Source of the DNA: Bacteroidetes bacterium 4572_112
Lineage (GTDB): Bacteria > Bacteroidota > Bacteroidia > Bacteroidales > UBA1556
Direction: 5' to 3'
DNA: 33,292 nucleotides
NCBI GenBank assembly: GCA_002254285.1
Contig: NIUZ01000006.1
Coordinates: forward strand, 1-33,292
Below are positions 1,861-32,714 of the stretch, one piece after another. Each line of letters opens with the position of its first letter. The stretch's first letter is position 1. A program made the translations under genes and the position numbers. Under the pieces are notes generated by a model that saw only the letters and a list, made by a program, of their open reading frames with translations, was not told where the DNA came from and searched no databases.

Positions 1861-2112
1861 ATGCAAATCAACAAAAACATAGCCATTAGCGATAGTGGTT
1901 TTCTTTTCAATCCTGCCACAGGCGAATCGTACAGCCTAAATACTACAGGCACAGAGTTGCTAAATCTTATTAAAGAGGGAAAGACTCTTGATGAGATTAC
2001 TTCAATATTTATTGAAAAATATGATACCGATAAGATTACTGTAGAAAAAGATTATCAGGATTTTACGGAAGTGATAATGCAGTATAATTTATCTGAATCA
2101 GACGCAAAATAA
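1861..2112 (+). CDS. PqqD-like (RRE-type) small protein
   Basis: MQINKNIAISDSGFLFNPATGESYSLNTTGTELLNLIKEGKTLDEITSIFIEKYD...VEKDYQDFTEVIMQY matches the PqqD pattern (GxxYxLNxTGxxLLxLIxEGKTxxEI...D). The ORF opens at 1819, but ATG 1861 fits the family start better. Confidence 0.8.
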   Translation: MQINKNIAISDSGFLFNPATGESYSLNTTGTELLNLIKEGKTLDEITSIFIEKYDTDKITVEKDYQDFTEVIMQYNLSESDAK

Positions 2113-2114
2113 TT

Positions 2115-3158
2115 ATGGATAAAACATATACTATAGCCCTTAGTGGGTTAAATGCAATTGATAATCCTGGTCCTGGTGTTGCTGTGGCTCGTGGTTTGAA
2201 AGAGGCAAAGAGTTTTAAAGCAAGACTTATTGGCTTGAGTTATGAAAGTCTTGAACCGGGTGTTTATATGCGCGATTTATTCGACAAAATATATCAAATT
2301 CCTTACCCAGCAGCGGGAACAGAGGTTCTAAAAGCTCGTATTAATTATATTAATGAAAAAGAGAATTTAGATATTATTATCCCAAATTTTGATGCCGAGC
2401 TACATTCATTTATGAAGCTAGAAAAGGAATTAAAATCCATGGGAATTAATACATTTCTTCCTACTTTCGACCAGTTTGAGGAGCGTCATAAAGTAAATCT
2501 TCCAGAATTTGGTAAGAAATACGATATTTTAGTTCCTGGCTCAAAAGCAATTTACGATGCCTCAGAATTATATCATCTTGGTGATGATTTTGTGTTTCCA
2601 TATCTTATAAAAGGCAAATTTTACGATGCTCATATTGCATATAATGTGGAGCAGGCAAATAATTTTTTCAATAAGGTGAATGCTAAATGGGGTATGCCTA
2701 TAGTTGTTCAGAAATTTGTAAAAGGCGATGAATATAATGTTACTGGCCTTGGTGATGGGCATGGAAATACTATTGCAGCTGTAGCAATGCGCAAGCAGTA
2801 TATTACTGATAAGGGTAAGGCTTGGGGTGGAATTTCCATTGATAATAAGGAGATGATAAAGCTTACAAAACACTTTATTAGCCAAACAAAATGGCGAGGA
2901 GGTTTTGAGCTAGAGCTTATTAAATCTGCTGATGGCAAATTTCATCTTCTGGAAATAAACCCTCGTATGCCTGCATGGATATACCTTGCTGTAGGCGTAG
3001 GACAGAATATTCCCGAAGCATTGGCAAATCTTGCTATGGGTAATGAGGTTGAGCCTTTTACGAAATATGATATCGGCAAAATGTTTATAAGATATGCTTA
3101 CGATATGATAGTAAATCTTGAGGATTTTGAAAAAATAAGCTCAGAAGGCGAGCTGTAA
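2115..3158 (+). CDS. ATP-grasp domain protein (carboxylate-amine ligase type)
   Basis: 347 aa; VVQKFVKGDEYNVTGLGDGHGN and FELELIKSADGKFHLLEINPRMPAW are characteristic ATP-grasp motifs; starts 2 nt after the PqqD-like stop. Confidence 0.85.
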   Translation: MDKTYTIALSGLNAIDNPGPGVAVARGLKEAKSFKARLIGLSYESLEPGVYMRDLFDKIYQIPYPAAGTEVLKARINYINEKENLDIIIPNFDAELHSFMKLEKELKSMGINTFLPTFDQFEERHKVNLPEFGKKYDILVPGSKAIYDASELYHLGDDFVFPYLIKGKFYDAHIAYNVEQANNFFNKVNAKWGMPIVVQKFVKGDEYNVTGLGDGHGNTIAAVAMRKQYITDKGKAWGGISIDNKEMIKLTKHFISQTKWRGGFELELIKSADGKFHLLEINPRMPAWIYLAVGVGQNIPEALANLAMGNEVEPFTKYDIGKMFIRYAYDMIVNLEDFEKISSEGEL

Positions 3159-3164
3159 TTAAAA

Positions 3165-4547
3165 GTGAACAATACAAAACTGAATATAATGACAAAAATA
3201 AAATACGAAAGACCAATAATTAAGAAATTAGAGAATTCAATGCCTAATAAATTTGGTACGCGTACCGAATTTCAGCCAATGACTCATATTGATGGAGCTT
3301 CGGTTAAGGAGATGATTGCTAATCATGGTTCTCCATTATTTGTAATTTCTGAAGCTACCATTCGTAAGACATATCGTACTGCTAAGCGAGCCTTTACTAC
3401 TCGCTATCCTAAGGTGCAATTTGCTTGGAGTTATAAAACTAATTACCTAAACGCGGTATGTAACACATTCCATCAAGAGGGATCGTGGGCAGAGGTGGTT
3501 TCTGGTTTTGAGTACGAAAAAGCCATGAGAAACGGTGTTGATGGACGACATATAATTTTTAATGGTCCTGACAAAACCGAGGCAGACTTACTTAAAGCAA
3601 TAGAAAATAAATCATTAATTCATATCGATCATTTGGATGAGTATTATATGATTACAAAAATTGCTGAGGAAACAAAACTTCGCCCTCAGGTGGCAATTCG
3701 TGTGAATATGGATACAGGAATTTATCCTATGTGGGATCGTTTTGGATTTAATTATGAGAATGGCCAAGCTTGGGATGTTCTTAATAAAATAATGATGGGC
3801 AAAAAGATGGATCTTATAGGTTTACATTCTCATATTGGTACATATATGATGAAAGCTGAACCCTATGGTATAGCGGCTTCAAAGCTTGCAGACCTTGCTG
3901 TTGGCCTACGTCAGAAATACGATCATTATGTAAAATATATTGACCTTGGTGGTGGATTTGCTTCCAAAAACACTCTTAAAGGAGCGTTCCTTCCTGCCGA
4001 AGATACTAACCCTACTTTTGATGATTATGCTGAGGCAATTACTTCTGCATTATTGAATAGTAATATTAATCCTGAGCATTTACCGACTTTGATTTTAGAA
4101 ACTGGCCGTGCACTAATTGATGATGCGGGCTCTCTTTTGGGAACCGTAATTACAAATAAGCGCAATAGCGTGGGTGCAAGAAATACTGTTTTAGATATTG
4201 GTGTGAATATATTATTTACCAGCTTCTGGTACGATCATAAAATTACTCCTGCACAAGAATTTTCGCATCATGTGGAGGACACAAAAATATATGGTCCTCT
4301 ATGTATGAATATTGATGTTATTCGTGAAAATGTGAGCTTACCTCCTTTAAATGCTGGCGATAATATTGTAATGCATCGTGTTGGAGCTTATAATATGACT
4401 CAGTGGATGCAGTTTATTACTCTTCGCCCTGCTGTGGTTATGATTAGTGAAACTGGTGATGTGAATGTTATTCGTGATAGTGAGAAAATAGAGAATATTA
4501 CCGATTACGAAAGTGTTCCTAAACATCTTAAGAGTTTTGAGTTATAA
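3165..4547 (+). CDS. PLP-dependent decarboxylase of the Orn/Lys/DAP (LysA-like) family with an N-terminal extension
   Basis: NHGSPLFVISEATIRKTYRTAKRAF...VQFAWSYKTNYLNAV (PLP lysine region), GLHSHIGTYM, DLGGGF, LILETGRALIDDAG. Start is GTG 3165 or ATG 3189. Specificity unknown. Confidence 0.85.
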   Translation: MNNTKLNIMTKIKYERPIIKKLENSMPNKFGTRTEFQPMTHIDGASVKEMIANHGSPLFVISEATIRKTYRTAKRAFTTRYPKVQFAWSYKTNYLNAVCNTFHQEGSWAEVVSGFEYEKAMRNGVDGRHIIFNGPDKTEADLLKAIENKSLIHIDHLDEYYMITKIAEETKLRPQVAIRVNMDTGIYPMWDRFGFNYENGQAWDVLNKIMMGKKMDLIGLHSHIGTYMMKAEPYGIAASKLADLAVGLRQKYDHYVKYIDLGGGFASKNTLKGAFLPAEDTNPTFDDYAEAITSALLNSNINPEHLPTLILETGRALIDDAGSLLGTVITNKRNSVGARNTVLDIGVNILFTSFWYDHKITPAQEFSHHVEDTKIYGPLCMNIDVIRENVSLPPLNAGDNIVMHRVGAYNMTQWMQFITLRPAVVMISETGDVNVIRDSEKIENITDYESVPKHLKSFEL

Positions 4548-4572: not shown

Positions 4573-4613
4573 AAATCCACAATTTGATTTTATTCATATT
4601 GTGGATTTTTTTT
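4573..4613 (+). terminator. Rho-independent terminator of the PqqD/ATP-grasp/decarboxylase operon
   Basis: AAATCCACAAT ... ATTGTGGATTT inverted repeat followed by a T-run. Confidence 0.8.
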
Positions 4614-4766
4614 GTCTAAAAATGTGGTATTATACCAATTTGGTATCAAAATACGCTATAAATAAATTGGAATATATTTTCCTATTAGAAGGCAAAAAAG
4701 AACTTTGCTTTTTTTAGTATTTTTTTTCTTCAACTTTTTTGGCGCAAAAAAGTAGCAAAAAAACAC

Positions 4767-5363: not shown

Positions 5364-7522
5364 ATGGAAAGCATATATTTAATTTTAATAGTAATACTAT
5401 TTGCTCTTGCAATTTCTGATATAGTAGTTGGGGTTAGTAATGATGCTGTGAATTTTCTTAACTCAGCAATTGGCTCAAAAGTAGCTCCTTTCAAAGTCAT
5501 TATGGCAATAGCTGCCGTAGGTATTTTTGTTGGCGCAACTTATTCCACAGGAATGATGGAAGTAGCAAGGAAAGGTATTTTTCATCCTGAATTATTTAAT
5601 TTTCAGGAGATTATGTTTCTGTTCTTGGCAGTAATGATTACGAATATAATATTGTTAGATGTTTTTAATTCTTTCGGGATGCCAACATCAACTACTGTAT
5701 CAATAGTATTTGGATTATTAGGTTCTGCTGTTGCAATTGCTTGGTATAGAATTCATACTGATGCCAGTGCAAATCCAGAATTAATGAATTATATTAATTC
5801 GGCTAAGGCATTGCAAATTATTTCAGGGATATTGCTTTCGGTTATAGTTGCATTTTCTGTGGGTGCAATAGTCCAATGGTTTTCGCGACTTCTATTTTCT
5901 TTTAACTACGCCAAAAGGTTTAAGTATTTTGGCTCAATATGGGGAGGAATAGCTATTACTTCTATTACCTATTTTATACTAATAAAAGGATTAAAAGGCT
6001 CTCCTTATGCCTCACATATAATGGAAGATGGTACTCAGTTAATGGATTGGGCACAGTCGCATAGCTTGCAAATTATAGGAGTAAGTTTAATAATTTGGAC
6101 TATTATATTGCAAATAATGCAATGGTTAAAACTAAGCATCCTTAAATTTATTGTTCTTATAGGAACATTTGCTTTAGCGTTAGCTTTTGCAGGTAACGAT
6201 CTTGTTAACTTTATTGGCGTACCACTGGCTGGCTATAATGCTTACGAATATTGGATACATTCTGGAACAGCGGCAGATCAATTTATGAAGCTGTTGTTAA
6301 AACATCACTTGACTTAAGCCGTCAGGATGAAGGAGATGAGAGATTTGGGTCTTCTATTATGGCAAGAAATATTGTTAGAGGTTCTAGAAAAACAGCCATG
6401 GCTATTGATAATATCATGCCCTCTGGAATGAAATTAGCAATCAATAGGCAATTTGATTTACAGGAATACAAAAAGAGTATTTCTAATGATGCAAATCCTC
6501 CTGCATTTGATATGATAAGAGCTTCGGTAAACCTTGTTGTAGCAAGTATTCTTATTGCAATAGGAACTTCATTAAAGCTTCCTCTTTCCACAACTTACGT
6601 TACCTTTATGGTTGCCATGGGAACTTCTTTATCTGATAAAGCTTGGAATAGAGAGAGTGCTGTTTTTAGAATTACGGGTGTTATTTCCGTAATCGGTGGA
6701 TGGTTCTTTACTGCATTTTCAGCCTTTTTAAGTGCTTTTATTGTTGCTGTATTATTTAGCTATGGTTCATTTTATGTAGTTTTTATAATGACAGCCATTG
6801 CAGCATACTCTTTAATTAAAACGAACTTCTTTAATAAGAAGCTTGATGAAAGCTCTGAAGAAGAATGCATTGAAGATATTGCTGACGACAATGTTTTAAT
6901 TAAAAGCACTAGCAATGTTGTAAAAACATTATCAAATATTAATAATATTTACGACAACATTATCAAAGGTTTAGAGAATGAAGACAGAGCTTTGCTGAAA
7001 AGTGTTAAAGCAGAAGTTAAAGAGATGAATAAGCGCTCTAAATACCTTAAAGATACTGTTTATAAAACCATTAAAAAGCTTAATAAAGACTCTATTTCTA
7101 CAAGTCATTTCTATGTGCAAGTTCTTGATTACCTAAGAGAATCAACTCATTGCATGGAATATATGGCTAAACCAAGTTTTGCTCATGTTGATAACGATTT
7201 TTCAAGATTACACGATGTTCAATTTAAAGAGTTAAAATTAATTTCTAAGAAATTACGTGACTTTTACCAATTAATATTTGAAGTAATAGAGACTAAGGAT
7301 TATGCCAAAGTGCAAGATGTTATTACTATTCGTGAAAAGCTCATTAAAGAGATTGAATCTTATAGAAAGAAGCAAATAAAGCGTCTTAAACATGGTAAAG
7401 TGGGTAGTAAAAATAGTATGCTGTATTTAGGTTTATTGCACGAAACAAAGAATCTGCTATTGCATAGCGTTAATCTTATTAAAGCCCAAAGAGACTTTGA
7501 CGATTATAAAATAGAGGAATAG
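5364..7522 (+). pseudogene. inorganic phosphate transporter (PiT family) with C-terminal PhoU-like region, split by a deletion/frameshift
   Basis: ORF 5364-6317 is the N-terminal PiT half (SNDAVNFLNSAIGSKVAPF, FAGNDLVNFIGVPLAGYNAY). ORF 6251-7522 (TTG opening) resumes at VKTSLDLSRQDEGDERFGSS...LGTSLKLPLSTTYVTFMVAMGTSL plus a helical C-terminus. The expected intervening TM segment is absent. Confidence 0.75.
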
Positions 7523-7751: not shown

Positions 7752-8873
7752 ATGAACCCATTTCAACTAACAGGATATCACGGGCCAGAGCTGTTTTGTG
7801 ATAGAGAGGAAGAAACTGAAAAGTTATATAATGCTATTGATAATGAGCGTAATGTAACACTTACTTCTATTCGCAAAATGGGTAAGTCTGGACTTATAAA
7901 ACACGTACTTCATAAGCTAAAAGCTAATAAAAAAGCATACTCTGTTTACTATCTAGATATATACCATACGGAGAATCTAAGCAATTTTTTGGAGGTTTTT
8001 GGTAAAGAATTGATGAATAATCACAGTAATTTCCCTCAAAAAGTACGTAATTTATTCGAAAATTTCATCAAATCACTCAATCCAACCATATCTTTTGACC
8101 CATTAAGTGGCAAACAAAACCTTAGTTTCAATTTTAATTCTAATGTGAATAAGGAGCAATCCATAATCGGAATATTTGATATACTATCGAAAATATCGGC
8201 TACGAAAAAGGTTGTAATAGCCATTGACGAATTCCAACAAATAGCCAAATATCCTGAGAAAAATGTTGAGGCATTATTGCGAGGAGTTATTCAGAGTTTG
8301 AAAAATATAAACTTTATTTTCTCAGGCAGCGACACTTCTATGATGACCGAGATATTTAATGACAGCAAGCGACCATTTTATCAATCTACTCAGTTGATGC
8401 ACCTAAGTCATATTCCTTACGATAAGTATAGCGAGTTTATAAATCACCATTTTGAGTCGAATAAACGACATATAGAGCAGCAGGCAGTGGATTTTATTCT
8501 CAATGAAACCCGAATCCATACTTATTATGTTCAGTTTCTTTGTAATAGAGCTTTCGCTAGCAAAAAGAAGAAAATAAACCTGAATGATATAAAACTTCTT
8601 TATTCGGAAATACTGCAAGAAAACGAAGCCTATTATAGCACTTATAAGGATATGCTTAGCACCCAACAATGGAAACTACTAATTGCTTTGGCCAATGAGG
8701 GTGGCTTTGCCAGCGTTACCTCTGGTGATTTTATCCGCAATTATAACCTAAGCAACGCAAGCACCATCCGCCGTAGCGTAAAGTCATTATTACAAAAACA
8801 AATGATATTCAAAAAAGATAACAGCTATTATGTCTACGATGTATTCTTTGCACGTTGGCTAACTAGATTATAA
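7752..8873 (+). CDS. archaeal-type AAA ATPase (PF01637-like) with C-terminal winged-helix-like region
   Basis: FCDREEETEKL, Walker-A-like SIRKMGKSGLI, Walker B KKVVIAIDEFQQI, sensor-like FIFSGSD, C-terminal ASTIRRSVKSLLQKQMIFKKDNSYYVYDVFFARWL. Confidence 0.85.
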   Translation: MNPFQLTGYHGPELFCDREEETEKLYNAIDNERNVTLTSIRKMGKSGLIKHVLHKLKANKKAYSVYYLDIYHTENLSNFLEVFGKELMNNHSNFPQKVRNLFENFIKSLNPTISFDPLSGKQNLSFNFNSNVNKEQSIIGIFDILSKISATKKVVIAIDEFQQIAKYPEKNVEALLRGVIQSLKNINFIFSGSDTSMMTEIFNDSKRPFYQSTQLMHLSHIPYDKYSEFINHHFESNKRHIEQQAVDFILNETRIHTYYVQFLCNRAFASKKKKINLNDIKLLYSEILQENEAYYSTYKDMLSTQQWKLLIALANEGGFASVTSGDFIRNYNLSNASTIRRSVKSLLQKQMIFKKDNSYYVYDVFFARWLTRL

Positions 8874-8878
8874 AAAAT

Positions 8879-10762
8879 ATGAAACCAAAAATAATCATCA
8901 CCATAATAATAATGCTATTCAATATTGCAGCGGTAAAAGCGGTTGCGGTAGATGTGCATTATGCAAAATTAGCCAAGAAAATTGAGAGAGATACCATTAG
9001 CAGAACTAATGGCAAAACAACTACGCTCACCATTTATAATGGAGAAAAGGTTGTGGAGGTAATAAGGTTGCGTGATGGAAAGAGGAATGGAATTCACGAA
9101 TTGTTTAATGGAGATGGAAGTCTTAAAAAGCAAGCTGCTTATAAAAATGGCAACTTACATGGCAAAACGATAATTTATAATTATAGAGGACAAATTATAG
9201 AAGAAAAAACTTATAAATACAATAAAGCAAGAGGCCACTCTCTGCTACAAGGCAAATACGAAAAGTATTATAATACTAGACTGATATTTTCGGCAAATTA
9301 TAAAGACAGCCTGTTACATGGAAAGGCTTTGGAATATGCAAACAATAATTTGAAAAGCATAAAGCATTATAAAAGAGGTAAACTTAGCGGCAATGCAAAG
9401 AGGTATAATTATGCGAATGGGCTTTTGATTTCTGACGAAAATTATAAGATTATTAAAGATAGTATTTCCGAAAAATCGGTTTTGCATGGCAAATGCATAT
9501 ATTATAGTAGCAATGGAGGTATAAATAATATTGGCAACTATAAAAACGGAAATAAGGATGGTGTTTGGAAAACATATTATCATAATACTCCGAATATTGA
9601 GTCTGAGATAAACTATAAGGATGGATTGAAATATGGTGCTTTTACGAAATACTATTCCAATGGAAATATCAAAAATGAAGGCTTTACTTTTGAAGAACTA
9701 TTGTCAAATAAGCGTAAAAAAACCAAATTGGATGGCGAGCAAAAGGACTATTACGAAAACGGAATACTGTCGAAACTAAGTCATTATAATATGGGCGTAA
9801 AAACTGGTATTTGGGAAACCTATTATAATAATGCTAAGTTAAAAACCATAGGGGAATACAGTGACAATCTGCTTATTGGCAATTCGTTGTATTATGGATT
9901 AGATGGCGATACAATCAGCTATGTTACATATAAACTAATTTCGCAAAATAATAAGTTGGCATCCGTAAAAGATGGTACCGAAAGACGATGGAAAAATGGC
10001 GCAAAGGTTTTTGAACAAACTTATAAGGATGGCAAAAAGCATGGCAAAGGAATAAGCTATTATGGCAACGGACAGCCATCAAATCTGATGAATTTTAACG
10101 AAGGATATCTTGAAGGTGAGTATGTAGACTATTATCAAGATGGGCAAACAAAATCATACAGAGTTTATAGAATTGATACTAACATTCGTAGTCAAATAAA
10201 ATCGAAGATTATTGGATGGGAATATAGGTACGATAAAGATGGAAGTTTAAATTTTAAGAATTACAGAGGCAAAAACGAAAGTTCTTTATACAGCATAAAT
10301 TTTACCAAAGGCAAAATAAATAAGATACAATATGGCAATGGAATGACATTAAATTATTTTCCAGAAGGAAAGTTAATGTCAATAATAATCAATAATAGAT
10401 ATTCGCAGCCCATATTTGCGCAATATTTTTATAGAAATGGGCAAATGCGCATCATTAGTTTTCAGAATGGAGATAAGGGCGTGATAAATCAAATTATATA
10501 TACCAGCAATGGCGATTTGATGACTACCACAAATTATACAAATCAAAACCCCGATAGTTTGAATCCTAGCCCAAGCACTATTGCTAATTTTGGTGAGGCT
10601 GTTGGCTTACATTATATCGACAATAAATTCTATACCGACACCTTGCGCAATGGTAGTTATAGTTTATTTTATGGCAGTGGTAAGCCAATGTGTAATTTGC
10701 AATTGAAAAACGAATTGCTCGATGGCGAATTTGTATTATTTGATGCCCTAAATGGCGAGTAA
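8879..10762 (+). CDS. secreted MORN_2/YwqK-like repeat protein (probable N-terminal part of a split gene)
   Basis: Signal peptide-like start MKPKIIITIIIMLFNIAAVKA; many DGxxHGxxxxYYxNG-type repeats (GVWKTYYHN, DGKKHGKGISYYGNGQ). Confidence 0.8.
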   Translation: MKPKIIITIIIMLFNIAAVKAVAVDVHYAKLAKKIERDTISRTNGKTTTLTIYNGEKVVEVIRLRDGKRNGIHELFNGDGSLKKQAAYKNGNLHGKTIIYNYRGQIIEEKTYKYNKARGHSLLQGKYEKYYNTRLIFSANYKDSLLHGKALEYANNNLKSIKHYKRGKLSGNAKRYNYANGLLISDENYKIIKDSISEKSVLHGKCIYYSSNGGINNIGNYKNGNKDGVWKTYYHNTPNIESEINYKDGLKYGAFTKYYSNGNIKNEGFTFEELLSNKRKKTKLDGEQKDYYENGILSKLSHYNMGVKTGIWETYYNNAKLKTIGEYSDNLLIGNSLYYGLDGDTISYVTYKLISQNNKLASVKDGTERRWKNGAKVFEQTYKDGKKHGKGISYYGNGQPSNLMNFNEGYLEGEYVDYYQDGQTKSYRVYRIDTNIRSQIKSKIIGWEYRYDKDGSLNFKNYRGKNESSLYSINFTKGKINKIQYGNGMTLNYFPEGKLMSIIINNRYSQPIFAQYFYRNGQMRIISFQNGDKGVINQIIYTSNGDLMTTTNYTNQNPDSLNPSPSTIANFGEAVGLHYIDNKFYTDTLRNGSYSLFYGSGKPMCNLQLKNELLDGEFVLFDALNGE

Positions 10763-12146
10763 AGGCTTGGCTACACTAAAGGAAACTTTTGATGAAAAAG
10801 GCAAAAGAGTTGAATATTATACCTTTCATACAAATGGCAAAATAAAGAATTATACAAATTACCTTAGTGGTGCAAATGTAAGTTATGACGCCAATGGTAA
10901 CATTCTTAATGAGACTATAAATAAGGGTAATATTTCTGTGCGCAATCGTTATTATGCTCTCAAAAGGCAAATTAGCTCATCTAATATATACATCGATAAT
11001 AAAAAGGATAGCATTTGGAAAACATATTATCCAACGGGAATTTTAAAATCAACCATAAGGTATCATAAGAATCAAAAGAATGGTAAATACATATATTATA
11101 ATGAAGAAGGAAATATAAAAAACGAAGGAAATTATAAAAATAATATAGCAGATGGTGCTTGGGTAAAGCATTTTGAGGGAACTACCGATACTACATTTTA
11201 CAAAAATGGAAGGGCAGTAGTAAAGCGAAATTTAGCACAATGCGAATGCGTGGATACCACATTGCATAAAATAGGTTTTGCGAACAGCTTAAATCGTTTG
11301 CTAGATTATTATACTCTAGTAAATAATATGCCATCTTATATTCAATCCCTGGATAGCAATGCCTATAAGTCAATTTTCTATTCGGGATTATTTACAGGCA
11401 GTGGCTCATATTCACTTACAATGCTTATGTATAAGAAGCTGAGTTTCGAGCTGCCTGCTGATAAGCAATTGCGCTTGACCATAAACCCATGTCATACCAA
11501 AGGTTATGTGAGTAAGGTAAGAGCTTCGGCATATATCGACCCCAGGTCACCACATAAGCGAATGACTATCAACCCTAAGCGTATTGCTATAGAGTTTATT
11601 AAGGGACCAATGCAGAGTGATGATTTAAGGCATAAATTTTTTACGGCATCGTTTAATATGGAGAGTATTAGATTTATTAGTGACGAAAAACCTCATGTAT
11701 ATATGGCCAAGGAAATTGATCCATGCTTCACAAAGGCTGTAATAAAAAATTATTTGCATTTGCAGGTAAATGATGCTTCGCTAACCATATTTAAAACTCC
11801 ATATTCCAATTATTCATACATAAAGAGTAAGGAACTCGATAATTTTTTCGGAATACAAATCAATGATGCGGATATAGAGTTTAACTATAATAAGTTTGGC
11901 GAAAATCATACTCTAAAGGCAAAATGTAGTAATATGTTGGCAGGAGGAAATTTTGCCTCCGGTAGAATTACTTTAGAATGCACTAAAAAAGGAGTAGATA
12001 AATTTGAAGTAAAAACTGAGGATGGATTATTGCAATTCAGCTCGCAAGATCTAAAAGTGGAATGGCTAAAGAGAGGATTTACTCATCTAAATTTCTTTTA
12101 TAGCGAAGAAATAAATGCTTTGGTAATTGATTTTTACGCAAAATAG
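10752..12146 (+). CDS. MORN_2-like repeats plus unknown C-terminal domain; probable continuation of the upstream ORF
   Basis: No signal peptide; repeats continue (DSIWKTYYPTGILKSTIRYHKNQKNGKYIYYNEEGNIKNEGNYKNN); overlaps the upstream ORF by 11 nt in another frame. Confidence 0.6.
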   Translation: MASKGLATLKETFDEKGKRVEYYTFHTNGKIKNYTNYLSGANVSYDANGNILNETINKGNISVRNRYYALKRQISSSNIYIDNKKDSIWKTYYPTGILKSTIRYHKNQKNGKYIYYNEEGNIKNEGNYKNNIADGAWVKHFEGTTDTTFYKNGRAVVKRNLAQCECVDTTLHKIGFANSLNRLLDYYTLVNNMPSYIQSLDSNAYKSIFYSGLFTGSGSYSLTMLMYKKLSFELPADKQLRLTINPCHTKGYVSKVRASAYIDPRSPHKRMTINPKRIAIEFIKGPMQSDDLRHKFFTASFNMESIRFISDEKPHVYMAKEIDPCFTKAVIKNYLHLQVNDASLTIFKTPYSNYSYIKSKELDNFFGIQINDADIEFNYNKFGENHTLKAKCSNMLAGGNFASGRITLECTKKGVDKFEVKTEDGLLQFSSQDLKVEWLKRGFTHLNFFYSEEINALVIDFYAK

Positions 12147-12240
12147 ACGATTTATAATTATGATACGAGCATGACAAAATTTAATCTTATTTTGACCCAC
12201 AGGGCAATGATTAAAATATTGTTATGTGACTCCATATCAC

Positions 12241-12323
12241 CGAATTAATAGATTTTAAACATATGAAACGAACATGACAATTTTTAATCATAAATCGAAT
12301 TAATAGATTTTAAACATATGAAA
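12241..12323. repeat. 28-bp perfect direct repeat spanning the start region of the downstream gene
   Basis: CGAATTAATAGATTTTAAACATATGAAA at 12241-12268 and 12296-12323 (offset 55 bp). Confidence 0.9.
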
Positions 12324-14108
12324 AAAACTATATATATAATCATTGCTATATTAGCAATAACGGTAATATCGGCAACAAATGGGCTAGCGCAAAAGGTATA
12401 CGATGTGTTTAGCAACGAATATATGCCCATTACCAACTCGCTTTATAAGGAGGTGAATGTGCGTAATTCTATTTTTAAGAATGAGGTGGAGGTACTTTAT
12501 TTCAAAATTAAGAATGAAGATACAAAGGCCATTAAATCCATTAATAAACAGGCCTATGCAATTTGTCTCGACTACCTTACTAATGAAAAAAAATCGATGA
12601 AACTAATGTCTGAATTAGAGCAGAGGTTAAGAGTAAGAAATGAACTTCAAAATTCCAAAAATGATGATTATGACCGAAGGGCAGAATATAATCAGCGGTC
12701 AAATCCACCTTTGCATAGCATAAAAAGCAGTATTATTTCTCGCATTGCTGATAAGTTATTTATTAGAGTGGATTTTAATTTTAAGAGTGAGTATAGCCGC
12801 AATTATTACGATAGCGATGATATAAATATTAGCCATTATTATGTGGCAAATATTAAGAGTGCTAAAGTAAAACGCTGGAAGAATGATTTAACGAATAAGC
12901 AATTATCTATTTTGCAGGAGAACCTATCGGAGCAACTGAATAGAAATTATTCGCAGGCAAATTCGGAACTTAAGCTTAGCGAAATAGAGCTCCTCAAAAG
13001 TAATGAAGAATATCAAGAGAATAATAGGGTTGAGGAATGTAAAAATATTTGCACACGAATAGATCTTTATGAGGCTGATTTTTATTGCTATGCTTGGGGT
13101 ATTATTGTTGATTTTCAGGAATATACCAATAGTAGCAAGATATATTATGGCGAAAAATTTCAGTTATTTATTCCTTATACCGATGCCAAGCAAATATTTA
13201 AGAATATTCCCAAATTTGCGTTCTTAAATCATATTCCAAATGTAAGTACCCATATTAATAACTTCAATATTCTTGATTTTTATAATAAAGCAGCATCAGA
13301 CAGAAGAGCCCCCGAAGCAGAGAATATTGTTGAGCTTAATGGCATAAAAAACTCACCAAAATCGCTAAGTATAATTAGAAGTCAGATATTAAGGGATAAT
13401 ACTGCCACAAACTTCACAAAGCAAGAGTTTGAGTATAATACCAAGGGGCAAATACTATCCAAAATATTGTATCAAGGTAAGGGTAATGTGTTTTATAGGT
13501 CAACCTTTTATAGCTACGATTCTGCAGGCTTATTATTGAGCAAAATAGTAAAGTATAAAGATAATAGAGAGGAATCTGAAAGCTATACTTACGACCATAA
13601 AAATAATCTTAGCCGATTAGCCATACGTAGCTCAAGCGACGACGAAAATAGTAATAAACTATATTTTTATAATGGAAACAATATTTACTATTTCACAATG
13701 GACAACGCCATAAGTGTTGATAATAGTGGGATTAGTAGATTACGTTTTGATAAAAACCGCATTTATAATACCGACAAAAACTATTTTGCGATAAATGATA
13801 AAAGGCAAATTGAAGGCATTGTTTCTTTAAGAAATTATAATAATCAAGGGCAATTTGGTCGCGATAGCTTGGATCGAATTATTGAATATCATAATGAAAA
13901 TGATAGATATAATTACTATTGGAATTACGACAGTTTGAACAGATTAGTTGAGTTTGAGCAATACGAATTTCAGAAAAATAAACTTCATATAAGCTTCCTT
14001 TACCAAGGTGAGAATATGTTGCCATATAAACGAATAAATATTCAAAAATATGGTGGTAATAATACTGTATTAGAAAAGGAACTTAAGTGGGAGATGTTTG
14101 AGGAATAG
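12318..14108 (+). CDS. secreted protein with YD/RHS-like repeats
   Basis: Signal peptide MKKTIYIIIAILAITVISATNGLAQ; C-terminal EFEYNTKGQILSKI, TFYSYDSAGLLLSKIVKY, SYTYDHKNNLSRL, YYWNYDSLNRLVEFEQYEF. Confidence 0.7.
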   Translation: MKKTIYIIIAILAITVISATNGLAQKVYDVFSNEYMPITNSLYKEVNVRNSIFKNEVEVLYFKIKNEDTKAIKSINKQAYAICLDYLTNEKKSMKLMSELEQRLRVRNELQNSKNDDYDRRAEYNQRSNPPLHSIKSSIISRIADKLFIRVDFNFKSEYSRNYYDSDDINISHYYVANIKSAKVKRWKNDLTNKQLSILQENLSEQLNRNYSQANSELKLSEIELLKSNEEYQENNRVEECKNICTRIDLYEADFYCYAWGIIVDFQEYTNSSKIYYGEKFQLFIPYTDAKQIFKNIPKFAFLNHIPNVSTHINNFNILDFYNKAASDRRAPEAENIVELNGIKNSPKSLSIIRSQILRDNTATNFTKQEFEYNTKGQILSKILYQGKGNVFYRSTFYSYDSAGLLLSKIVKYKDNREESESYTYDHKNNLSRLAIRSSSDDENSNKLYFYNGNNIYYFTMDNAISVDNSGISRLRFDKNRIYNTDKNYFAINDKRQIEGIVSLRNYNNQGQFGRDSLDRIIEYHNENDRYNYYWNYDSLNRLVEFEQYEFQKNKLHISFLYQGENMLPYKRINIQKYGGNNTVLEKELKWEMFEE

Positions 14109-27830: not shown

Positions 27831-28667
27831 ATGAGCGTACATAATATTACAATTTTAAAAAATTCTGGAGAAACAGAGCTCTTTGATGAGAATAAACTCA
27901 TGGAGTCTTTGCGTAGGTCAGGAGCTTCAAATGATTCCATAAAAAAGGTTGTTGACGAGCTTGGTTTATACCTTTATGATGGAATGTCGTCGCACAAAAT
28001 TTATAAAAAGGCATATAGCATATTAGGAAATATTTCCATGAAGGATGCTGGAAAATATCGCCTTAAGAAAGCTATTTTGGAACTTGGCCCTACTGGTTAT
28101 CCTTTTGAGCAATTTGTTGGTGCAATTCTAAAAACGCAAGGATATTCCGTAAAAGTTGGTCAGTTGATTGATGGCAAATGTGTGCAGCATGAGGTTGATG
28201 TGGTTGCCGAAACTAAAGATAAAATTATTGTTGTTGAATGTAAGTTTCACCGTACAGGAAATACAAAGAGTGATGTAAAAGTCCCTTTATATATTCGGTC
28301 TCGCTTCAACGATATTTATGATAAATGGTCGCAAGATGGCACCCTAGCAGGTCGTGATTACGAAGCTTGGCTAGTTACAAATACTCGTTTTACTGGAGAT
28401 GCTGAGCAATTTGGCAAATGCAGTGGCTTGGTGCTCAAATCGTGGAATTATCCTTATAATAGTTCGCTAAAGGATATGATTGATAAAGCAGGATTGCATC
28501 CAATTACTAGCTTAAAAACATTGAGTCGTAAGGAAAAGCAGAATATGCTAGATGAGGGAGTGGTACTTTGCCGCGAAATAAGTGAGCAAATTTTGATGAA
28601 GAATAATATAAAACGAACAAAGATAAATAAAGTACTTGCTGAGGCAAAAGTACTAACCGAAATATAA
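27831..28667 (+). CDS. ATP-cone domain fused to Mrr-like PD-(D/E)XK nuclease
   Basis: N-terminal ILKNSGETELFDENKLMESLRRSGAS...YKKAYSIL (ATP-cone); QFVGAILKTQGYSVKVGQLIDGKCVQHEVDVVAETKDKIIVVECKFH (D...ECK nuclease core). Confidence 0.8.
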   Translation: MSVHNITILKNSGETELFDENKLMESLRRSGASNDSIKKVVDELGLYLYDGMSSHKIYKKAYSILGNISMKDAGKYRLKKAILELGPTGYPFEQFVGAILKTQGYSVKVGQLIDGKCVQHEVDVVAETKDKIIVVECKFHRTGNTKSDVKVPLYIRSRFNDIYDKWSQDGTLAGRDYEAWLVTNTRFTGDAEQFGKCSGLVLKSWNYPYNSSLKDMIDKAGLHPITSLKTLSRKEKQNMLDEGVVLCREISEQILMKNNIKRTKINKVLAEAKVLTEI

Positions 28668-31535: not shown

Positions 31536-32714
31536 ATGAAAAAGAAAAGTAGTGAAATAATAAAGCTTCCAAATCCATTCAAGTTTGGTACAATAGTCGA
31601 TAACGATAGGTTCTGTAATCGTATTGATGAGTTGCGAACCCTTAAACAGTATGTTTATGATGGTTATTCGGTATGGTTGTTTTCGCCACGTAGGTACGGA
31701 AAAAGCTCTTTAGTAAAAAAGGCCTTTGCTCAAATAGATGACAGTACCACCATTTATATAGACCTTTATAATGTAAAATCCATTGATGATTTTGCGAAGA
31801 AATACTCCAAAGCACTAGCCGATAATTTGTTTAATTGGAAAACTGGGATTAAAAAAATCAGCACTTCATTGTCAAAATATTTTAGCTCACTTTATCCTAA
31901 AGTATCAGTAGGAACGGATGGTATTCCATCAATGTCAATTGAGAAAAAGGAAATAAACCAACAGGTAGATATTGAGCAAATATTGAATATGCCTGAGAAG
32001 TTTGCCCAAGATAATAATATAAAAATATGTATTGCCTTTGACGAATTTCAAGAGGTAGAGCGTATTGACCCATTTATAATAAATTGGATGCGCACAGCTT
32101 TTCAAAACCATAAGCACATAAGCTATATTTTTCTGGGTAGTAAGCAATCATTGATGAAAGAGATTTTTGCTGATATAGAATCTCCATTTTATGAGTTTGC
32201 TGTAAAAATGGATCTTGCAGAAATATCGTCAGAAGATTTAAGTGAATTTATAAAAAATAAGTTTGATCAAAATAAGATTCCTATTTCACAAAATACTATA
32301 GATGAAATATTAAAACGCTCCGAAAGGCATCCTCATTTTACACAATACTTTGCCTCGGTGGTGTTTGATGCTATTAGGTATGGCGAGGAACAAGATGACG
32401 AAGATTTTGCCGACAGATGGATGGATAAAATAATTAATAGTCAAGGAATTATATTTCAAACCATTTATGACCAACTAGCAAGTAACCAAAGAAGTGTTAT
32501 TTCTGCAATTGCCCAAATGGAAGACAAGCAGGAGCTCTTTTCTGATAAGGTAAGAAAGGATTTTGGTCTGCCAGTAAGTTCTTCAATAGCCATTACTTTG
32601 AAGGCATTAATCAAAAAAAGCTTGGTATATAAAACTCCAGAAGGGAAATATAGAATAGATAACCCAGTATTTAAAGAGTGGATTTACAGACTAAATACAG
32701 GAGGTTTGAGGTAA
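31536..32714 (+). CDS. archaeal-type AAA ATPase (PF01637-like), paralog of 7752-8873
   Basis: FCNRIDELRTLKQY, Walker-A-like SPRRYGKSSLV, Walker B IKICIAFDEFQEV, YIFLGSKQSLMKEIFADIESPFYEF, wHTH-like SSSIAITLKALIKKSLVYKTPEGKYRIDNPVFKEWI. Confidence 0.88.
   Translation: MKKKSSEIIKLPNPFKFGTIVDNDRFCNRIDELRTLKQYVYDGYSVWLFSPRRYGKSSLVKKAFAQIDDSTTIYIDLYNVKSIDDFAKKYSKALADNLFNWKTGIKKISTSLSKYFSSLYPKVSVGTDGIPSMSIEKKEINQQVDIEQILNMPEKFAQDNNIKICIAFDEFQEVERIDPFIINWMRTAFQNHKHISYIFLGSKQSLMKEIFADIESPFYEFAVKMDLAEISSEDLSEFIKNKFDQNKIPISQNTIDEILKRSERHPHFTQYFASVVFDAIRYGEEQDDEDFADRWMDKIINSQGIIFQTIYDQLASNQRSVISAIAQMEDKQELFSDKVRKDFGLPVSSSIAITLKALIKKSLVYKTPEGKYRIDNPVFKEWIYRLNTGGLR

Follow-up and report, generated by a model that had tools for sequence, protein, structure and literature searches.

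What a PqqD-like protein, an ATP-grasp enzyme and a LysA-like decarboxylase might be making together, with no precursor peptide in sight, was the question raised by a stretch of 33,292 nt (the window), which is contig C152 (NIUZ01000006.1) of the MAG of Bacteroidetes bacterium 4572_112 (2.23 Mb, 71.5% complete). The three co-oriented genes of the initial annotation are real: all are present as ORFs on the plus strand, and all their products match Pfam over the cut-off. They encode a PqqD-like protein (1861..2112, 83 aa; PqqD, 44.9 bits, 1.5e-11), a predicted ATP-grasp carboxylate-amine ligase (2115..3158, 347 aa; ATPgrasp_Ter, 1.6e-11, and ATP-grasp_3) and a PLP decarboxylase of the AR fold (3189..4547, 452 aa; Orn_Arg_deC_N, 9e-28, and C-terminal domain, 1.4e-12). 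Comparison with relatives agrees with 1861 as the start of the PqqD gene, and the 2-nt gap that follows this gene stands as first described. The second gap had been given as 6 nt, which requires a GTG start at position 3165; since the relatives begin with M-x-K-x-x-[YF]ERP, the decarboxylase is likely to start at the ATG at 3189, leaving about 30 nt between the two genes. The unit is closed in this genome by an intrinsic terminator at 4573..4614 on the plus strand, with an 11-bp stem followed by a T-run (-18.3 kcal/mol, z -4.58), which bears out the clear terminator of the annotation. It was found by RNA folding, a simple pattern scan giving no match there, and a search of the window against Rfam also gave no match.

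Several other features of the window are worth noting. A rhodanese-type sulfurtransferase at 389-1520 on the minus strand looks split into two or three ORFs (Pfam match on 1170-1520). A PHO4 phosphate permease at 5364-7522 on the plus strand appears divided between two ORFs that overlap (317 and 423 aa) and each resemble PHO4, which suggests a frameshift or an assembly error. The MORN-repeat proteins at 8879-12146 come from a further pair of overlapping ORFs (627 and 464 aa), which may be a single disrupted gene. Two related AAA ATPases of the ATPase_2 type lie at 7752-8873 and 31536-32714, and a protein with an Mrr-type restriction endonuclease domain is encoded at 27831-28667, with housekeeping genes on both sides.

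When the GTDB genome contigs were scanned with short peptides of a single sequence, that of the ATP-grasp protein, 27 loci were returned, and all the record titles that name a group belong to Bacteroidota (Bacteroidales, Flavobacteriales, Sphingobacteriaceae, Aquiflexum and others). PqqD, ATP-grasp and decarboxylase genes occur in identical order in 26 of these loci, the 27th being interrupted by a contig end. The arrangement is far beyond chance, and the neighbourhood is thus conserved well outside the close relatives of the organism, across Bacteroidota. In the relatives, these genes are usually followed by three more, in the order PqqD, ATP-grasp, decarboxylase, UT-M23 (a urea-transporter domain fused to an M23 peptidase), an outer-membrane protein with a TPR part and a barrel, and a TPR protein. 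The UT-M23 fusion and the TPR-plus-barrel protein were each found in 25 of the 27 loci and the TPR protein in 23; in deeper branches, a shorter protein or a substitute takes the place of the barrel protein, and its gene comes after the TPR gene. In the genome of the window, this second half is grouped on contig C93 on the minus strand, with other genes on both sides: the UT-M23 gene at 10446-12641, the barrel gene at 9038-10429 and the TPR gene at 8442-9050. All six genes are contiguous in four members of the same genus (G001, G004, G006 and G009), and a fifth (G010) has a two-part split identical to that of the window genome, so an assembly error is unlikely to be its cause. The window therefore holds half of a six-gene system, ended by its own terminator. 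The description of the triple as a self-contained transcription unit does not hold for the family, most relatives having three further genes in the operon, and the statement that no transporter is present is correct for the window but not for the system, whose other half contains transport and envelope genes.

Co-occurrence was examined in two samples, 60 relatives and 393 genomes drawn across the phylum Bacteroidota. The ATP-grasp gene was found in 35 of the 393 genomes, all 35 of which also contain a UT gene, nearly always in an open frame of at least 500 residues adjoining the ATP-grasp gene; the remaining 12 UT genomes have short stand-alone UTs, with open frames of 332 residues or fewer. 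Among the 60 relatives, the genomes with a strong match to the ATP-grasp enzyme are the very 26 that have one to the cassette decarboxylase. All 26 contain a UT gene, and two further genomes have UT, one as a UT-M23 fusion at a contig start and the other as a stand-alone protein. The PqqD-like gene was recovered by a six-frame HMM search in all 54 loci examined, ruling out its absence from some lineages. Pairwise divergence is correlated among the five testable genes (r 0.74-0.91), as expected for co-inheritance, although shared host descent contributes too. Plasmid carriage of the cassette was looked for and none was found, and PADLOC gave no anti-phage defence match for the six proteins. In G183, a one-contig genome, the cassette is present at both ends of contig C1 (L117 and L118), apparently an unclosed circular overlap.

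The decarboxylase had been placed in the Orn/Lys/DAP decarboxylase fold, as its two Pfam domains confirm. Among the NCBIfam models, it scores higher with FslC (NF041039, 234 bits) than with LysA (TIGR01048, 209.8 bits), both below the respective cut-offs of 500 and 297.9 bits, and the full-length cassette decarboxylases score 203-236 bits with the LysA model. The nearest PDB entry is 7kh2 (1.5e-58), an N-citrylornithine decarboxylase. Active-site residues were read from an alignment to FigC and the M. jannaschii DAPDC, together with the published account (PMC7857480). The catalytic Lys, the Gly loop, Glu, Arg and Cys of an AR-fold PLP decarboxylase are all kept (SYKTNY, GGG, ETGR and GPLC aligned to FigC). 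Recognition of DAP depends on an Arg of the specificity helix and an acidic residue beside the catalytic Cys (PMC7857480); in the cassette enzyme, this Arg, which binds the distal carboxylate, is replaced by Thr and the acidic residue by Met, as in FigC, and both replacements are near-invariant in the 54 members. In addition, H357 and R387, the modelled citrate contacts of FigC (PMC7857480), are replaced by Ile and Gln, respectively. Across the 54 decarboxylases, the motifs FTxFWY, CMNID and TQWMQF hardly vary. Since the catalytic residues are kept and the contacts to both DAP and citrate are lost, these residues point to an enzyme that is most likely active on a substrate that is neither DAP nor citrylornithine. 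With LysA it shares the fold and catalytic residues, and with FigC/FslC of rhizoferrin biosynthesis the CMxxD motif as well as two residues of the specificity helix, Thr and Tyr; unlike FigC/FslC, which is partnered by an NIS synthetase, it is partnered by an ATP-grasp enzyme. The likeness to FigC would then be one of family logic. As for LysA itself, no protein passes its cut-off in many genomes of the order among the 60 relatives, whether or not they carry the cassette, which suggests lysine auxotrophy or an unrecognised LysA.

The ATP-grasp protein shares 56-66% identity with 23 relatives, and K166-G-K168, E265, E267 and E280-I-N-P-R284 are invariant in the 24 sequences. It has the Pfam match, the fold and the ATP/Mg residues (K-G-K and E-I-N-P-R) of the superfamily. 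By target TM-score, its AF2 model (pLDDT 82.6) is closest to 2pn1, with the L-amino-acid ligases 3vot and 4wd3 and PylC (4ffl) further down. The model supports a carboxylate-amine ligase and points to no particular substrate.

The nearest PDB chain of the PqqD-like protein is TbiB1 (5v1u, 1e-7), a lasso-peptide RRE with which it shares the PqqD fold family, and it carries the RRE/PqqD domain looked for in RiPP clusters. Scores with the NCBIfam PqqD families HPr-rel-A, PQQ, GeoRSP and SynChlorMet are all below the cut-off, and no conserved residue stands out as the attachment point of a covalent carrier. Unlike the TbiB1 and PqqD systems, the cassette is not accompanied by a precursor, a lasso cyclase or a radical SAM enzyme. 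ORFs of 18-130 codons were compared up to 3 kb from the genes at about 50 loci. No family among them spans more than 4 loci, and such clusters as do form come mostly from closely related genomes or consist of shadow frames. The view that this is not a PQQ, GAK/HPr-rel or classical RiPP locus is upheld. Of the uncharacterised peptide- or amino-acid-modifying pathway proposed for it, the first word stands, as no description was found in the open-licence literature, while the peptide substrate finds no counterpart in a conserved small ORF.

In the second half of the system, the UT-M23 protein of one relative (L014) matches Pfam UT (9e-64) and M23 (5e-16). The urea site of UT proteins is lined by a Gln, a Glu and two Thr. 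When 52 UT-M23 proteins were compared with the bacterial urea transporter dvUT, the repeat-1 Gln was found to be kept in 39 and the repeat-2 Glu in none (Ala in 40), and Ser mostly replaces both pore Thr, so that the complete urea site is not retained; all four residues are intact in three stand-alone UTs from Bacteroidota. Urease is present in 7 of the 12 UT-only genomes, as against a strong match in 1 (G225) of the 35 cassette genomes, and a urease partnership of the cassette was rejected. Judged by these residues and the missing urease link, plain urea uptake is an unlikely role for UT-M23, which also differs from dvUT in its fusion to M23; the His/Asp and HxH motifs of the peptidase are present in 48 of the 52 fusions. 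The barrel protein is modelled (pLDDT 86) as a helical TPR part followed by 14 strands, and since Foldseek returned only generic barrels (FadL, OmpG, BcsC and AlgE), no function follows for it. AraC-type regulators with an N-terminal heavy-metal-associated (HMA) domain adjoin or lie near the six-gene operon in 10 of the 27 loci (L021:6089-6658, for example), and one of them has an MxCxxC-like motif; their presence makes a metal-related role conceivable.

With somewhat less than even confidence, we take the triple to be the half of this conserved six-gene system that carries out biosynthesis in the cytosol: amide formation would come first, then decarboxylation, then handling at the membrane. 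The ATP-grasp enzyme would join a carboxylate and an amino acid (probably a diamino acid) through an amine of the latter, and the PqqD-like protein would present or hold one substrate, in the way of RREs or of the small carrier BtrI. The decarboxylase would then take the alpha-carboxyl off the conjugated amino acid, like FigC and BtrK, and the product, or a small by-product, would be handled by the UT-M23 protein of the inner membrane, the TPR/14-strand barrel of the outer membrane and the TPR protein. The order of ligation before decarboxylation is proposed because the non-polyamine members of the family other than DAPDC (FigC, SbnH, AcsE, MccE and BtrK) have conjugated amino acids as substrates.

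The front half resembles, by analogy, the logic of FigA/FigC and of BtrI/BtrJ/BtrK in butirosin biosynthesis, an equivalent trio in which an ATP-grasp ligase (BtrJ) and an AR-fold decarboxylase accompany a small protein of about 85 aa. BtrI is a small carrier and BtrK an AR-fold decarboxylase acting on a conjugated amino acid, glutamyl-BtrI, just as FigC acts on N-citrylornithine (PMC7857480). However, BtrI is an acyl carrier, whereas the small protein of the cassette is of the PqqD/RRE type, and the butirosin genes form a secondary-metabolite cluster without UT-M23 or outer-membrane partners. As no system described in the open-licence literature combines these parts, we call the six-gene system new at the system level, although an account in a subscription journal is possible. 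Several observations count against our reading of amide formation, decarboxylation and membrane handling: a urea-channel fold would be an odd exporter of a larger conjugate, biotin carboxylases rank first among the generic fold matches of the ATP-grasp protein, the citrate contacts of FigC are lost from the decarboxylase, the PqqD-like protein shows no evident attachment residue, and in the order of the window only 7 of the 26 cassette genomes have a LysA over the cut-off.

Other readings explain parts of these data. The system could be of the RiPP type, with the PqqD-like protein acting as RRE for a leader peptide encoded elsewhere, the ATP-grasp enzyme and decarboxylase modifying the peptide, and M23 or the outer-membrane part maturing and exporting it. 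A PqqD domain at every locus and the closeness to TbiB1 are in its favour, but we consider it improbable, given that no small ORF recurs in the 3 kb around the genes at about 50 loci, that the NCBIfam scan gave no match to graspetide or other RiPP maturase models, and that neither a maturation protease nor an ABC exporter belongs to the conserved gene set. An envelope or muropeptide role, in which the decarboxylase acts on diaminopimelate with a peptide-linked L-centre (in a recycled or precursor muropeptide), the ATP-grasp enzyme adds a residue and M23 cuts peptidoglycan, would suit the M23 motifs and a DAPDC-related enzyme that has lost the residues binding the distal carboxylate and amine. 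Yet the ATP-grasp protein has no Mur-ligase match, the UT domain and PqqD are left unexplained, and most Bacteroidota lack the system, in a phylum where nearly all members make peptidoglycan; this role, too, seems unlikely.

The similarity of the decarboxylase to FslC/FigC, together with the AraC-HMA regulators, could instead point to a metallophore, i.e. a small chelator under the control of the AraC-HMA regulator. We think this quite unlikely, since the citrate-binding residues are lost, the conserved set includes no NIS synthetase, TonB receptor or MFS exporter, and a siderophore cluster would not usually be so highly conserved or have a fixed operon. Least probable is that the decarboxylase merely serves as LysA in these genomes, its neighbours being incidental. 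No other LysA was found in the incomplete genome of the window, where it is the only Orn/DAP-decarboxylase detected, and 19 of the 26 cassette genomes of the same order have no other LysA over the cut-off (two of them narrowly), the other 7 having one. Across the phylum, however, 30 of the 35 cassette genomes have a separate LysA (E 1e-105 or better), and this coexistence, the scores well below the LysA cut-off and the loss of the DAP-recognition residues lead us to reject a canonical LysA, the fixed operon also being at odds with incidental neighbours.

The reading that we prefer, again at slightly under even odds, is of a dedicated and ancient Bacteroidota system in which a decarboxylated amino-acid conjugate is moved across, or built into, the envelope by way of UT/M23 and the TPR-barrel complex. 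This would be a novel type of system, uniting biosynthesis with the envelope. The system is a bounded and testable unit of six genes, with near-perfect co-occurrence and cultured hosts (Aquiflexum, Cognataquiflexum and Yeosuana). Its characterization would bring a further decarboxylase specificity into a family whose members are readily mis-annotated as lysA, show PqqD in use away from the RiPP loci known to date, and assign a role to a urea-channel fold fused to a peptidase. Should the product prove to be an envelope molecule or a chelator, then many Bacteroidota contain a compound that has so far been overlooked.
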